Shown: one piece after another, positions 51,541 to 57,350 of the stretch
Position numbering within the stretch: the first letter of the stretch is position 1
Layout: every line of letters starts with the position of its first letter
Origin: Mesodorylaimus sp. YZB2_4
Lineage: Eukaryota > Nematoda > Enoplea > Dorylaimida > Dorylaimidae
Assembly (NCBI GenBank): GCA_030248295.1
Contig: JASANH010000499.1
Span: 496,001 to 560,000, forward strand
Reading direction: 5' to 3'
DNA length: 64,000 nucleotides
Notes under the pieces: generated by a model
The model's database searches: none
What the model was told of the DNA's origin: nothing
What the model saw: only the letters and a program-made list of their open reading frames with translations
Made by a program: the position numbers and the translations under genes

Positions 51541-51780
51541 TACAAAAGACACCCTTTTAACCAAAGTTTTTTGTTTTTTTTTGTTTTTTGTTTTTTTTTT
51601 TTCATTTCAAAATTTTTTTTTTTTATTTTTTTTTTTTTATTTTTTTTTTTAAAATTTTTTTTTTTTTTTTTTTTCATCTATTTTTTTTTTTTTTTTGTTA
51701 TTTTTTATTTAAATTTTTTTAAATTTTTTTATTTTTTATTTTTTATTTCAATTTTTTTTTTTTTTTTTTTTTTTAATTAA
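51541..51780 (-). repeat. A-rich low-complexity tract in the LINE 3' UTR
   Basis: About 240 bp, almost only A runs with TTT/AATTT interruptions on the minus strand, starting right after the ORF2 stop and about 290 bp before the true poly(A) tail. Confidence 0.85.
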
Positions 51781-51796
51781 ATTCAGCCCTTATACT

Positions 51797-54700
51797 TTAT
51801 CCTCCTGGAATCGCATACAAAACCTCGATAAAAGACAACTTTACAAACTGCTCATGAAAACCCTGCGGTGTCAAAATACACCTAGCTCGTTTTGTTAGTC
51901 CTTTTAGTCGGGTCACCAGCGAATCCCACATGTCAATCAGCTCATTGTCTTCCTCATAGGCCACCCTTGCTGCCCATATACACCTCTGGGTACATTGCAA
52001 AACCATGTTTGCAACTGAGGCGATATGTTTATTTTGAAGACCCAGTACTCCAAAAATCCTATTCTCCTCACTAAGAGATACAGTACTGTCTAACTTTTTC
52101 AACAGTCCCTCCACTTGCTCCCAAAAGTACTCAATTCTTGGGCATTTCACAAAAACGTGATAGACATCTTCGTGTTTATCCAATCCATACCTAACACTGC
52201 AGTATTTACAGTTAGCGTCTAAATCTGCAAAATTAGAGACTCTGCTTCTCGTATACAGTGCTTTATACAACAATGAGTAGTGCAAATTTCGTGAATACCC
52301 ATCCACATTTTTGGTCCGAGTCAATCTCCAATACGCACTAAAATCTATCTGCTCCATTCCCAACTTTCCCTGCCAGTACTGTTGCATCGCTGTCGTCGCT
52401 TTCATAACTTTCTTCTCCAACATATGCTTATACAAAATCTTTGTCTTAACGTGTTTGATCGGATAAACTCGGGCGTCCAAGCCGACACTGTTAGGGTTCA
52501 ATAAAGAAAATTTAGCAGTCACCACGGCCCTGCGTATATCCTTGTACAGTCGGGGTACTGCAATCACATCCAACTGGTTTGGCTTCGCATCCTGCACTTT
52601 ACTGTAGAAATAGTCAAAACTGGCATGCCACGCGGCATTATTATCTGAGCACTGCCTGCGTAGTAAAAGCATCAGCCTGAAAGCTAATACTTTGTAGCCT
52701 ACATCAGGGTAGGCTATCCCACCCTGCTCCTTGCTTCTCTTTAGAATGCACTTATTTATCATATTCACTTTTGAAGGATACCAAAGATATCCATCAATTT
52801 GCCTTTCTACAAATCTCTGAAAATCGTTCTCAGGTGCAATTATTGATGCCAAATACCATGCTTTCGAGAGAAAGTATGTGTTGGCAACATGGATCCTACC
52901 AAAATAAGAGATCTCTTTATGGGGTACTTTGCTACTTAGCTGCCCTATGTGCTCACGGACTGCCACCCAGTTGTCGTTATTTTCCAACCCGCTTCGCAAG
53001 ATCCAAAACCCATAAACTTTTATTTTCTCCGTCATAAACTGTCCCAGCTCTTCGTCTATCTCGGAAATACCCTTTGCTCCAAGGCATAAGATTTTGGTTT
53101 TTGCTCTTTTTAGTGTCGCTCCTGATGCTTTCCTGAATTCTTCATACACCCAAAATATCTGCTTCACTGAGTCCGTATCCGCCACCAAAAAATTTGTATC
53201 ATCAGCATAATTACTGATTTTTAGCTGATGCCCTAGCACGTCAATACCTTTTACACCCGTGTCCCTTCTTATATAATTGGCGACTGTCTCAGATACTAGA
53301 ACATACAAGAGGGCGGATAACGGACACCCTTGCCTGATTCCCCTGGTCTGGCAGAAAGCAGCCGAAACGTAGCCATTTACCTGCACTGACGATTTTACCA
53401 TTCCTGGCTTATAGATAATTTTGATCCAGTCCCCAAAAGTCTGGCCTAAGCCGAAATACTCTAACACCCTGTGCAAATACTCCCATTCCACTATATCGAA
53501 GGCAGTCATGTGGTCGACAGAAAGGAGCATGGCTTCCGCACCGGTCTCATTTATGTACTCCACCGCATTGTACAGGGTCAAGACCCCGTCCCTGATATCC
53601 CTTCCAGGCACCGAGCACGTCTGGTCAGGATGCACAATTTTAGGCATTACTTTCCTCAACCTCATGGCTAGGACTTTTGCCAAAATTTTGTAGTCCACAT
53701 TCAGCATGGTCAATGGCCGCCAGTTTGACCTTTGGGCCTTGTCCCCTTCCCCCTTATACAGCTGCGAAATTATTCCAAAGTAACAACTTGAGGGAAGAAA
53801 CCCTACCCTCAGAGAAGCCGAATAGACTTTGCTCAGAATTTGTCCTAGTTCTCCCAAGAAAAACCCATAAAATTCTATTGGGAGACCATCAGAACCTGGT
53901 GTCTTCTTTGTCTGAAATGAGCGAATTGCAGCCCGCACCTCTTCCTCTCCTATTTTATCTCCCATGGGTCCCCTGTCTGCATCCTGTACCACCCCGTATG
54001 GCCGCCGACATAAAAAAAGATCCGCAGCCCCTTCATCAATGCGCCCTACGCTAGTGAACAAACTCGCATATTGCCTTCTAATTTCCCCTATTACCTCTAG
54101 CTGGTCATCGTACACAGTCCCGTCCTCCCCGCGTATCGAATACACTGTCCTGCTCTCCGCCGAATTTTTCTGCATTAATTTGGCAGTGGTCATCGTAAAC
54201 TGATCAGTTGCCAAGTCCCTGTAGTGCGTTTTCATTAGCCTCTTTCTGACTTCTTCCCTATCTAATTCTTTTAACCTGTTCCTAACGGCCAGAAATTCTG
54301 TTTTTAAGAGATCACTTTGTGGATGCCTACCCCACAAAACTTTGGCCCTCTCTAATTCCTTTTCTAAAAAGGCACGTTTTTTCCTGCTCTCAATTTCCAG
54401 TGTTCTTTTACGCGCTTTACACAGCGCACCTACTTCCTGTTTGCACTCGTCCCACAGATTAAGGACCTCCTCATCAGAAGCCCCAATAAAGCCCTCTTGT
54501 AAAATGCGTAGTTTTTCCCTGACAATATTTTGCACCAATTTATCCCGCACAATTAAATCTACATCAAGCTTCCAATAAGAAGGACCCATTCTTATTTTCG
54601 CAAAAGAAAAGTTGCACTCTACCTCGAAGATTTTATGGTCAGACAGACCCGTATCCGTGAATTTGTAACCTCTATAAGATGTTACCACGTTTTCAGACCC

Positions 54701-55402
54701 ATAAATCCTATCAATACGGCCCTGCGTTTTAGTGCTGTGGGCGAGATGAGAGAACTCCCTTCGTTTCGCATGATTGGCCCGAAAGACATCATGCAGTCTG
54801 AATTTCGAAGAAAACTTGCGAAATTCTTTTAGTCCGACCTCAGGGTACACAGTGAGTTCGCTGCGATCCAACTCTTTGCACTCCACAAAATTGAAATCTC
54901 CTAGACAGACGCATGCATCATGATATCTGAACCTTTGCAAAGTTGTCTCGAACAAATTATCAAAAAACACCCTCCTCTTATTTTCTTGAGCTGGAGCATA
55001 AAGGCCAATACACAGGAAAATCTTATTCTGATACTTTGCTGTCAGTACTACGGCTCGCCCTGATACACTTGTTATCCTAATGACGTCAGAAAATAAAGAA
55101 CTCCTATTTACCAACAAACAGACCCCTGCACTGAACTCCTCCGAAAAAGAATGATAACTCCTGAATTTTCGCTCAAAAATATTATCAAAATACGCAGCCT
55201 CCCTAGCACTTCGAAAATGGGTTTCTTGAACACATAGCAGATCATAATGTTTCAAAAATTCAAAGACTGCAAGAGTTTTTTGGGGCTTATCCCTCAATCC
55301 TGCTGCGTTGTATGTTGAAAATTTAATATTAGACCCTATTTTGTTCCTGGGGAGAGAGCGAAAAAGAAATGCAAAAACTAATAAAGCAAAAAGGAAGAAT
55401 AA
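51797..55402 (-). CDS. LINE ORF2: AP endonuclease and reverse transcriptase
   Basis: Open for 1,201 codons after a stop at 55405-55403. The endonuclease starts at KFSTYNAAGLRDKPQ with catalytic-type motifs CVQETHF, LGDFNF and GLSDHKIFEV. The reverse transcriptase has QLYKGEGDKAQRSNWRPLTM, SVDHMTAFDIVEWEYL (motif A), RGIRQGCPLSALLYVL (motif B) and NYADDTNFL (YADD encoded at 53209-53198). A C-terminal CKYC...HEDVYHVFVKC cluster is the zf-RVT type found in many LINEs. There is no ATG before the endonuclease domain: the upstream codons (…LLVFAFLFRSLPRNKIGSNI) are open but contain none. Initiation must therefore use splicing to ORF1, reinitiation or a non-ATG codon. Role: nicks the target and primes reverse transcription. 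Confidence 0.9.
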   Translation of the reverse strand, partial: LFFLFALLVFAFLFRSLPRNKIGSNIKFSTYNAAGLRDKPQKTLAVFEFLKHYDLLCVQETHFRSAREAAYFDNIFERKFRSYHSFSEEFSAGVCLLVNRSSLFSDVIRITSVSGRAVVLTAKYQNKIFLCIGLYAPAQENKRRVFFDNLFETTLQRFRYHDACVCLGDFNFVECKELDRSELTVYPEVGLKEFRKFSSKFRLHDVFRANHAKRREFSHLAHSTKTQGRIDRIYGSENVVTSYRGYKFTDTGLSDHKIFEVECNFSFAKIRMGPSYWKLDVDLIVRDKLVQNIVREKLRILQEGFIGASDEEVLNLWDECKQEVGALCKARKRTLEIESRKKRAFLEKELERAKVLWGRHPQSDLLKTEFLAVRNRLKELDREEVRKRLMKTHYRDLATDQFTMTTAKLMQKNSAESRTVYSIRGEDGTVYDDQLEVIGEIRRQYASLFTSVGRIDEGAADLFLCRRPYGVVQDADRGPMGDKIGEEEVRAAIRSFQTKKTPGSDGLPIEFYGFFLGELGQILSKVYSASLRVGFLPSSCYFGIISQLYKGEGDKAQRSNWRPLTMLNVDYKILAKVLAMRLRKVMPKIVHPDQTCSVPGRDIRDGVLTLYNAVEYINETGAEAMLLSVDHMTAFDIVEWEYLHRVLEYFGLGQTFGDWIKIIYKPGMVKSSVQVNGYVSAAFCQTRGIRQGCPLSALLYVLVSETVANYIRRDTGVKGIDVLGHQLKISNYADDTNFLVADTDSVKQIFWVYEEFRKASGATLKRAKTKILCLGAKGISEIDEELGQFMTEKIKVYGFWILRSGLENNDNWVAVREHIGQLSSKVPHKEISYFGRIHVANTYFLSKAWYLASIIAPENDFQRFVERQIDGYLWYPSKVNMINKCILKRSKEQGGIAYPDVGYKVLAFRLMLLLRRQCSDNNAAWHASFDYFYSKVQDAKPNQLDVIAVPRLYKDIRRAVVTAKFSLLNPNSVGLDARVYPIKHVKTKILYKHMLEKKVMKATTAMQQYWQGKLGMEQIDFSAYWRLTRTKNVDGYSRNLHYSLLYKALYTRSRVSNFADLDANCKYCSVRYGLDKHEDVYHVFVKCPRIEYFWEQVEGLLKKLDSTVSLSEENRIFGVLGLQNKHIASVANMVLQCTQRCIWAARVAYEEDNELIDMWDSLVTRLKGLTKRARCILTPQGFHEQFVKLSFIEVLYAIPGG

Positions 55403-55440
55403 TTAAGACTGTTCCTATTCTAGCGCCAGGTGACAGGCAT

Positions 55441-56892
55441 TCATGACTTACGGACATTCGGGGGTTCCTGGTGGCCATCAGTGCTCGAGTCGTCGCTACT
55501 GTTCCGTTCGAAAGCTCGCTTTCGTTGTTCCAATCGTCTTCGTTCTTCTTGGATCTCCTTGACCTCATTATCGTACATTGCCATCGCCATCATGCGGTCC
55601 CGCAAATCCGTCAACAATTGGCCAAAAACATTCATGCCCTTCCACTTAGATTTGTCTTGGATCGCTGGGTCATCTCGAGCGAGGCCGACGCCCCATCGGC
55701 GATCGTTTGGATTCGCTTCGACGAGGATTTTTGGTGCCGTTTTGAAAAGCTCTTTTCTCAATTCCACGTTGTGTTCAAATTTCTTTTCATTCGCCTTGGT
55801 CAACGCCGTCACCGCAAATTCCATCCAGTCGCCATGTTCTTCTTCGTCCCACTCTACTTTTCCTCCGAGTTTTTTTGCGCTTGCCCCAGTCTTTGCTTTC
55901 ATGATCTTTGACTCATTCTCTTTGTCTCCAACTTTCAGTGCCTTTTTCCAGCATAAATACTGTTCGGTCGAGGTGTATCCCGCTCCATCCACTGTAAAGG
56001 CGCAGTTGTACAGATTCGAGAAGGGTGACTCCGAAGTAAAGAATGGATGGAAAGCATTCGATTTCTCGGTGCTAGTTTCCATCGGCTCTTGGCGTATCGG
56101 GGATATCACTCGATTTTGACTAATCAAGGATGCGACAGATTCCAATGGAGGGAACTCCTCATCATCGTTCTCCTTTCCGATTTGGTGTGTGGTCATCTGG
56201 GCGACTGCCGAATTTCCTCTCATCGATCGAAAGCCCCCATAATTTCCTCCAGCACGGGACGCGTACGAGGACGGGTTGTGATCCACGTTTGGGCAGTCCT
56301 TGGCGACGTGTCCAGATTCCTGGCATCGATAACATTGAGTCAATTTTCCAGGGTACCATAGTTTGATCGATATTGGCTTTTTTTCCGTTTTCGAGTTGAA
56401 TAGTATGTTGCTTGGGATCGTCGTGTTAGGCGCCATTGAAACCCGCACTGAGCGTCCTCCATTCCGTATTTCCGTATTGGGCCATGTCGTCCATTGGACA
56501 TCCCCAATCACTTCGAGGCCTTTCTCCTTCAAACATGCGTTCACGTCGTTTTGATCTTCTTCAATCGGAATCCCATACAGGTAAATTACTTTCCTCCACA
56601 CGAGCGGGCCTGGTTTTTCTATTTCTACACGAATACCAAAAATCGATAACTTTTCTTTGAAGGCACTATCGCGTTCTTCCACTGTAGAGAAAATGAGTTT
56701 GATGGCGTTTTTCCGATTCAGGGCAAAAAGTGGGTGTAGATGCTTTGGATTTTCCTTGTAGATCGACACGATGATTTCTTCTTCTCTCCGGTTCAAAAGA
56801 TGATTCGTTTGTAGGGGAATAAATGCCACTCTTGATAATTTATCAGCATCCAAAATTTGGTTCACATCGGTTTCCAAGTTTCCGCTTTCCAT
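55441..56892 (-). CDS. LINE ORF1: nucleic-acid-binding protein with CCHC knuckle and NADAR domain
   Basis: 483 aa from ATG at 56892 (MESGNLETDVNQ). Residues about 1-185 have an RRM-like alternation (KVIYLYGIPIEEDQNDVNAC ... GGRSVRVSM). CYRCQESGHVAKDC at about 187-200 is a CCHC zinc knuckle. Residues about 281-435 form a NADAR (YbiA/DUF1768) domain: HPFFTSESPFSNLYNC, the STEQYLCWKKAL motif with its conserved Glu, KKFEHNVELRKELFKTAPK, then EANPNDRRWGVGL with conserved Asp and Trp, and FGQLLTDLRDRM. A charged coiled coil (KEIQEERRRLEQRKRAFER) follows. NADAR proteins act on ADP-ribose-related or riboflavin-pathway N-glycosides; YbiA cleaves such bonds. Why a retrotransposon carries one is unknown. 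A perfect donor-like CC|GTAAGT overlaps the last codons. Confidence 0.9.
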   Translation of the reverse strand: MESGNLETDVNQILDADKLSRVAFIPLQTNHLLNRREEEIIVSIYKENPKHLHPLFALNRKNAIKLIFSTVEERDSAFKEKLSIFGIRVEIEKPGPLVWRKVIYLYGIPIEEDQNDVNACLKEKGLEVIGDVQWTTWPNTEIRNGGRSVRVSMAPNTTIPSNILFNSKTEKKPISIKLWYPGKLTQCYRCQESGHVAKDCPNVDHNPSSYASRAGGNYGGFRSMRGNSAVAQMTTHQIGKENDDEEFPPLESVASLISQNRVISPIRQEPMETSTEKSNAFHPFFTSESPFSNLYNCAFTVDGAGYTSTEQYLCWKKALKVGDKENESKIMKAKTGASAKKLGGKVEWDEEEHGDWMEFAVTALTKANEKKFEHNVELRKELFKTAPKILVEANPNDRRWGVGLARDDPAIQDKSKWKGMNVFGQLLTDLRDRMMAMAMYDNEVKEIQEERRRLEQRKRAFERNSSDDSSTDGHQEPPNVRKS

Positions 56893-57130
56893 CACTGACG
56901 TCTGCCTCACCCTCCCAAGGGATCAGCTCGAAACAAATAGCAAATGGGAAAATATTCGATCGATTTCCTTTCCTCCAGTAATCAGCACGTTGGTGAGGTA
57001 GTAGAACTGGTTTATACACACGTGTACACGCAAACGAGAGCAAAGGAGAGACCCGACCTATCACGGCGGCGTCTGACAAGATCATGGTATCTAGTTGTGG
57101 GTCATGAGTTCATATCTAGTCTTTGAGCAT

Positions 57131-57261: not shown

Positions 57262-57350
57262 TTAGTACGGTACGGTACGAAGAGGCCGGTACGGTACGGC
57301 ACGGTACGGTACGGTACGGCCGTATCAGGCCACAGGTACGGGTACGGTCG
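57262..57350. repeat. GGTAC pentanucleotide tandem repeat
   Basis: Imperfect runs of (GGTAC)n, e.g. tacggtacggtacg and cacggtacggtacggtacgg. It ends exactly where the 7TM pseudogene fragment begins. Confidence 0.8.

Follow-up and report, generated by a model that had tools for sequence, protein, structure and literature searches.

A NADAR domain within ORF1 of an L1/Tx1-type LINE family from the nematode Mesodorylaimus sp. YZB2_4

Several Tx1 LINE families of Crassostrea gigas encode ORF1 proteins that appear to contain YbiA-family NADAR domains, according to the part of PMC12477816 available to us, which describes the NADAR-in-LINE-ORF1 architecture in passing. The LINE family in the window (the whole stretch analysed, 64,000 nucleotides) adds to this description. 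Both place NADAR within ORF1 of an animal LINE, a likeness drawn by description only; a selection test is given here for the window family, whereas the available account of the Crassostrea elements contains none. The same source, as far as it was available, reports NADARs in Ectocarpus Gypsy elements, whose outside matches are almost only bacterial. These are likewise retrotransposon-captured domains with mostly bacterial outside relatives, but they reside in Pol of an LTR element and not in ORF1 of a LINE. The accessible part of PMC11125620 leaves open what NADARs do physiologically in animals. In the open-licence literature, as far as its texts were accessible, we met no selection test or residue analysis of NADAR-bearing LINEs, and PMC11203168, from the Tx1/ORF1 literature, contains no mention of NADAR, YbiA or DUF1768.

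The window contains a LINE copy on the minus strand that extends from approximately 57085 to approximately 51567 (Table 1). The open frame of ORF1 spans 55441–56910, with the first ATG at 56892, and encodes 483 residues followed by a stop codon. The original prediction, a LINE ORF1 fused to a NADAR domain, is confirmed: ORF1 is uninterrupted and encodes a CCHC knuckle followed by a full-length NADAR domain. It lies on the minus strand, which the prediction did not specify. The Pfam profile search of ORF1 recovers NADAR (PF08719) with an E-value of 7.5e-33 and 114.5 bits against a curated cut-off of 35.1, covering profile positions 9–162 of 163, and the predicted structure has the YbiA fold. 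The STEQY, NDRRWG and FGQLLTDLRD motifs are all present as claimed. The zf-CCHC profile is matched in all five ORF1s scanned. The ORF1 protein can be read as an N-terminal part, taken as nucleic-acid-binding, followed by the CCHC knuckle, NADAR and a long helix, which in the structural model appears coiled-coil-like by eye from its charge pattern.

Table 1. Features of the LINE copy in the window.
Feature	Position	Strand	Remarks
5' UTR	56893..57085	-	outer end approximate; by eye, start resembles other lineages' starts
ORF1	55441..56892	-	483 aa, ATG to TGA
ORF1 N-terminal region, residues 1-185	56338..56892	-	common to other LINE copies; without Pfam match
CCHC zinc knuckle, residues 186-202	56287..56337	-	Pfam zf-CCHC 1.3e-6
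NADAR domain, residues 287-434	55591..56034	-	Pfam NADAR
Long C-terminal helix extending last NADAR helix	55483..55629	-	H144-192 of 205-aa model
Intron-like stretch between ORF1 and ORF2 (hypothesis)	55336..55451	-	C/GTAAGT ... T-rich ... AATAG/GG
ORF2, endonuclease and reverse transcriptase	51797..55297	-	1166 aa as listed from TTG
Endonuclease domain	54635..55291	-	Exo_endo_phos 6.2e-8
Reverse transcriptase domain	53003..53740	-	RVT_1 1.1e-30
A-rich 3' tail region	51567..51774	-	A-rich; outer end approximate

The family has the hallmarks of a LINE (non-LTR) element: an ORF2 with endonuclease and reverse transcriptase, an A-rich end, target-site duplications and 5'-truncated copies. Compared with PDB sequences by phmmer, a coarse test since the PDB holds few LINE clades, ORF2 matches human L1 ORF2p at 2.7e-72 and R2 at 7.1e-9. 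With the reverse transcriptase closest to L1 ORF2p, ORF2 is probably L1-type and falls in the L1/Tx1 group, and membership of the Tx1 clade is likely. The A-rich tail has a 69-base period (2.7 copies), and the 3' end is likewise A/T-rich in the L017 lineage. Upstream of the element, a GTACG-type pentamer is repeated 11.2 times at 57265–57319.

The assembly, 145 Mb in size, has 10 matches to collagen IV C4 domains, which occur in none of 14 control genomes and mark it as that of an animal. A NADAR profile search of it gives 75 matches, a total that includes host genes as well as single copies split into several pieces; 20 places and 11 shorter places were taken for study. In all 20 of the first set, NADAR is closely followed by this ORF2. 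Other LINE copies, with NADARs of about 50–65% protein identity, share the same ORF1 part before NADAR and the same ORF2 after it. The ORF1 N part, CCHC knuckle and NADAR are held in a single open frame in the window, L012 (which shifts frame after NADAR), L014, L015, L017, L018, L019 and L021. Among the shorter loci, L032–L034 carry the ORF1 N part and NADAR, and L029–L031 carry the N part without a readable NADAR, two being cut by contig ends and one diverging inside the domain. The remaining five, L035–L039, look cellular and are read from their frames as host NADAR genes. L037 (G000:C230:15900-18900) carries at least two consecutive divergent NADAR matches, and single host-like NADAR frames occur at C22, C38 and C621. 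Several short frames of 97–100 aa at C289, C929, C765, C491, C936 and C134 align with the NADAR profile over its first two thirds and are perhaps another multi-copy gene or repeat. L009 (G000:C120:1-6000) holds two copies of the window subfamily, inverted back to back, with NADARs 96.5–100% identical to that of the window.

L014, L015 and L016 are 99.5% identical across about 5.5 kb, and in L014, one of seven copies examined, a 14-base target-site duplication follows the poly(A); together these indicate that the family moved recently. The sole candidate at L018 is 10 bases long and lies at a distance from the ends of the copy, and a search at the window copy found no target-site duplication. 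The presence of separate, cellular-looking NADAR genes in this genome could have meant that a host gene merely lies beside a LINE by chance or through misassembly. This explanation is rejected, being already contradicted by the recurrence of the arrangement in many dispersed copies of several lineages, by the target-site duplication of L014 and by the position of the LINE NADARs in the tree, apart from the one host gene included.

Neither of the conditions that were to refute the original prediction is borne out: the NADAR profile hit is strong, and none of the copies examined, which cover the closest LINEs, is shown to represent a lineage that lacks NADAR or decays only in NADAR. A genome search with ORF2, restricted to the best 40 of 1281 candidates, gives 12 matches that reach ORF2 residue 1, and all 12 have a NADAR match just upstream. 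C10 and C21 match ORF2 from residue 32 and look 5'-truncated: C10 shares 98% identity with L017, beginning within the end of ORF1, and C21 joins C10 only within ORF2. One ORF2 match, at G000:C196:125996-128932, lies within a 22320-aa open frame that probably represents masked or repetitive sequence. By our count, 19 of the 22 ORF1 N-part matches that start at or before residue 60 and end at or after residue 240 adjoin a NADAR match. Of the other three, C946 and C313 run off their contigs, and C250 (L029) follows L014 at 99.2% identity through the first 18 bases of NADAR and diverges from there. L010, L022 and L024 have NADAR and ORF2 with no match to the ORF1 N part. The DNA upstream of L010 reads as host sequence, indicating 5' truncation, and L022 and L024 are taken, without proof, as truncations of the same kind.

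Eight LINE NADARs form one clade in the tree (support 100/99), apart from the single host NADAR gene included, which indicates a single capture before these lineages split. The best identity of the LINE NADAR, 43–44%, is to proteins from bacterial and viral contigs. The host NADARs L035–L037 align to it weakly (22.7–35.7% in local alignments), and L038 and L039 give no match. These values point to no one donor, since the sampling is biased and the set includes fragments and long branches.

Between lineages, synonymous substitutions are at or near saturation. The NADAR part is under purifying selection across copies, with between-lineage pN/pS of 0.22–0.42 (14 copies), compared with 0.26–0.31 for ORF2 (7 copies) and 0.36–0.50 for the ORF1 N part (12 copies). 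For the six lineage pairs with both regions, NADAR gives 0.22–0.37 and ORF2 0.26–0.31. These ranges place the constraint on NADAR close to that on ORF2 and make it stricter than that on the rest of ORF1. The sole unsaturated, moderately diverged pair, L021 and L028 (the latter itself decaying), gives dS 0.43, dN 0.06 and ω 0.15 for NADAR and dS 0.28, dN 0.04 and ω 0.15 for the N part. Near-identical pairs differ at too few sites to be informative; L011 versus L012 gives ω of 0.71 (NADAR) and 0.79 (N part).

The core of the active site is mostly conserved. Among the catalytic and ADP-ribose-contacting residues defined from 8BAU, E43, E125, D130, W89 and W133 are kept in 23–25 of 25 LINE copies, and the K50 position mostly retains Lys or Arg. 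The E125 position, which is Asp in BC4488 and His in phage NADARs (PMC11543638), is Glu in 23 of the 25 copies, as in the YbiA branch, with Gly in L013 and Lys in L034. With Arg at K50 counted as kept, eight cells of the six core columns deviate, in L013, L022, L026, L027, L028 and L034, which we read as decayed copies. In the copies examined, NADAR is shown to be ancestral, to form one clade, to be under purifying selection and to keep most of its core active-site residues. The selection and the largely preserved catalytic residues make a functional domain more likely than a relic. Conservation of E43 alone says little about catalysis, because the equivalent E88A substitution has only a minor in vitro effect in the published enzyme.

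Two phosphate contacts are lost. R79, which contacts the pyrophosphate, is Arg in none of the 25 copies (15 Glu, 4 Gly, 4 Lys, 2 Asp), compared with 74/80 bacterial and 45/47 viral-contig relatives. R93 is likewise never Arg (22 Ala, 1 Pro, 2 gaps), compared with Lys or Arg in 70/80 bacterial and 29/47 viral-contig relatives. In contrast to the Phytophthora nicotianae NADAR (PDB code: 8BAU), the LINE NADAR has both residues replaced and is part of a fusion protein in which it follows a CCHC knuckle. E. coli YbiA (PDB code: 2B3W; TIGR02464) has Arg at R79 and Lys at R93, and the LINE copies have neither. Since both are replaced in all 25 copies, ligand binding may be altered or lost, and the pattern suggests that the ligand is held otherwise than in free-standing enzymes.

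We favour, at a probability of roughly 40%, a reading in which NADAR acts in cis as a hydrolase within the ORF1p ribonucleoprotein. ORF1p would coat the element RNA, binding through its N part and CCHC knuckle, and would thereby hold NADAR on the element RNA and/or the nascent cDNA of target-primed reverse transcription. There it would hydrolyse an N-glycosidic bond, most likely clearing an ADP-ribose-type adduct from guanine and thereby allowing the template to be copied. We take base-linked ADP-ribose as the likeliest substrate because NADARs remove ADP-ribose from guanine. The interpretation in the original prediction is partly supported; its suggestion that the element removes host ADP-ribosylation is retained as a conjecture, since two phosphate-contacting arginines are absent from all 25 copies and a search of this genome for DarT gives no match. 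A structure search against viral models returns large RNA-virus proteins, namely the Ingleside virus RdRp (2.1e-5), the Wenling nido-like virus 1 replicase (3.6e-4), a yellow head virus helicase fragment (5.6e-4) and the gill-associated virus replicase (7.9e-4), together with many phage and giant-virus NADARs. These matches suggest that NADAR serves several kinds of replicating nucleic acid.

The loss of both phosphate-contacting arginines from every copy would also fit a domain that is only a binding fold, an ADP-ribose/nucleotide-binding or RNA-binding and assembly module whose last helix multimerises ORF1p. L1 ORF1p is multimerised by a coiled coil, and the last NADAR helix is extended by about 49 residues in the model. 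We consider this somewhat unlikely, since the five invariant or nearly invariant core residues persist despite saturated synonymous sites, which exceeds the need of a plain scaffold. The domain could also be an enzyme for another substrate, such as protein- or RNA-end-linked ADP-ribose or another N-glycoside in place of base-linked ADP-ribose. The changed pocket charge of the LINE copies and the varied substrate specificity of NADARs (PMC11125620, in its accessible part) speak for such an enzyme; nothing positive points to any particular alternative, and we regard it as unlikely. The NCBIfam model TIGR02464, which scores 118.8 bits on ORF1 against a cut-off of 73.7, bears the name of a riboflavin-intermediate N-glycosidase. 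That the element carries such an activity for metabolism is very improbable: to our knowledge animals do not make riboflavin, the domain sits in a ribonucleoprotein protein, and the model probably spans the YbiA branch at large.

The spacer between ORF1 and ORF2 may be an intron, or may act through some other RNA signal in the expression of ORF2. The ORF2 frame of the window is open further upstream without an ATG there, and in 18 of 21 copies the frame contains no ATG ahead of the endonuclease motif, counted from the nearest stop upstream; the exceptions, L022, L026 and L028, are all decayed. Skipping the intron-like stretch of the window reads ORF1 in frame into ORF2. By our count of 21 copies, the codon pair at the end of ORF1 is CGTAAG (Arg-Lys) in 11, CGCAAG (Arg-Lys) in 6, CGTCAG (Arg-Gln) in 2, and CGTGAG (Arg-Glu) and CGTTAG (Arg-stop) in one each. 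CGTAAG occurs in at least five of six Arg-Lys lineages, for which P is about 1e-6 under ORF1 codon use, a post hoc value that assumes independent lineages. A T-rich tract and, in most copies, ATAG/G precede ORF2. Removal of GT...ATAG joins the two frames in the window, L009, L011, L013, L014, L015, L016, L021 and L028, and in L017–L020 if GC serves as donor, giving 13 of 21 copies; among the GT copies that were measured, the removed stretches are 65 to 116 bases long. L010 lacks such an acceptor and has no in-frame join of this kind; the one fit there uses a different AG, two bases ahead of the motif. In a test that also required 300 stop-free bases upstream, the join likewise fails in L012 (frame shifted) and L022–L027 (decayed). 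Because the phases sit in conserved codons, the in-frame fit may go back to a single coincidence in an ancestor, with odds of about one in three. A search for a spliced genomic copy of the L014 lineage found none. Across lineages, the non-coding spacers of L010, L011, L012, L013, L021, L023, L026 and L028 share a TTGGCACCA-like motif.

A bolder proposal, which we consider improbable, is that the host lineage ADP-ribosylates bases of element RNA or cDNA to restrict retrotransposons, and that the ORF1 NADAR, with a phosphate pocket remodelled for polymer-embedded adducts, is a LINE-borne anti-defence enzyme that strips the mark. A conserved ORF1/ORF2 intron would also give an ORF1-NADAR-ORF2 fusion, in which the eraser is attached to the reverse transcriptase. 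That a mobile element has retained NADAR in several diverged lineages links the domain to nucleic-acid replication. If NADAR proved to be needed for retrotransposition, this would point to ADP-ribosylation of nucleic acids as a means by which animals restrain transposons.
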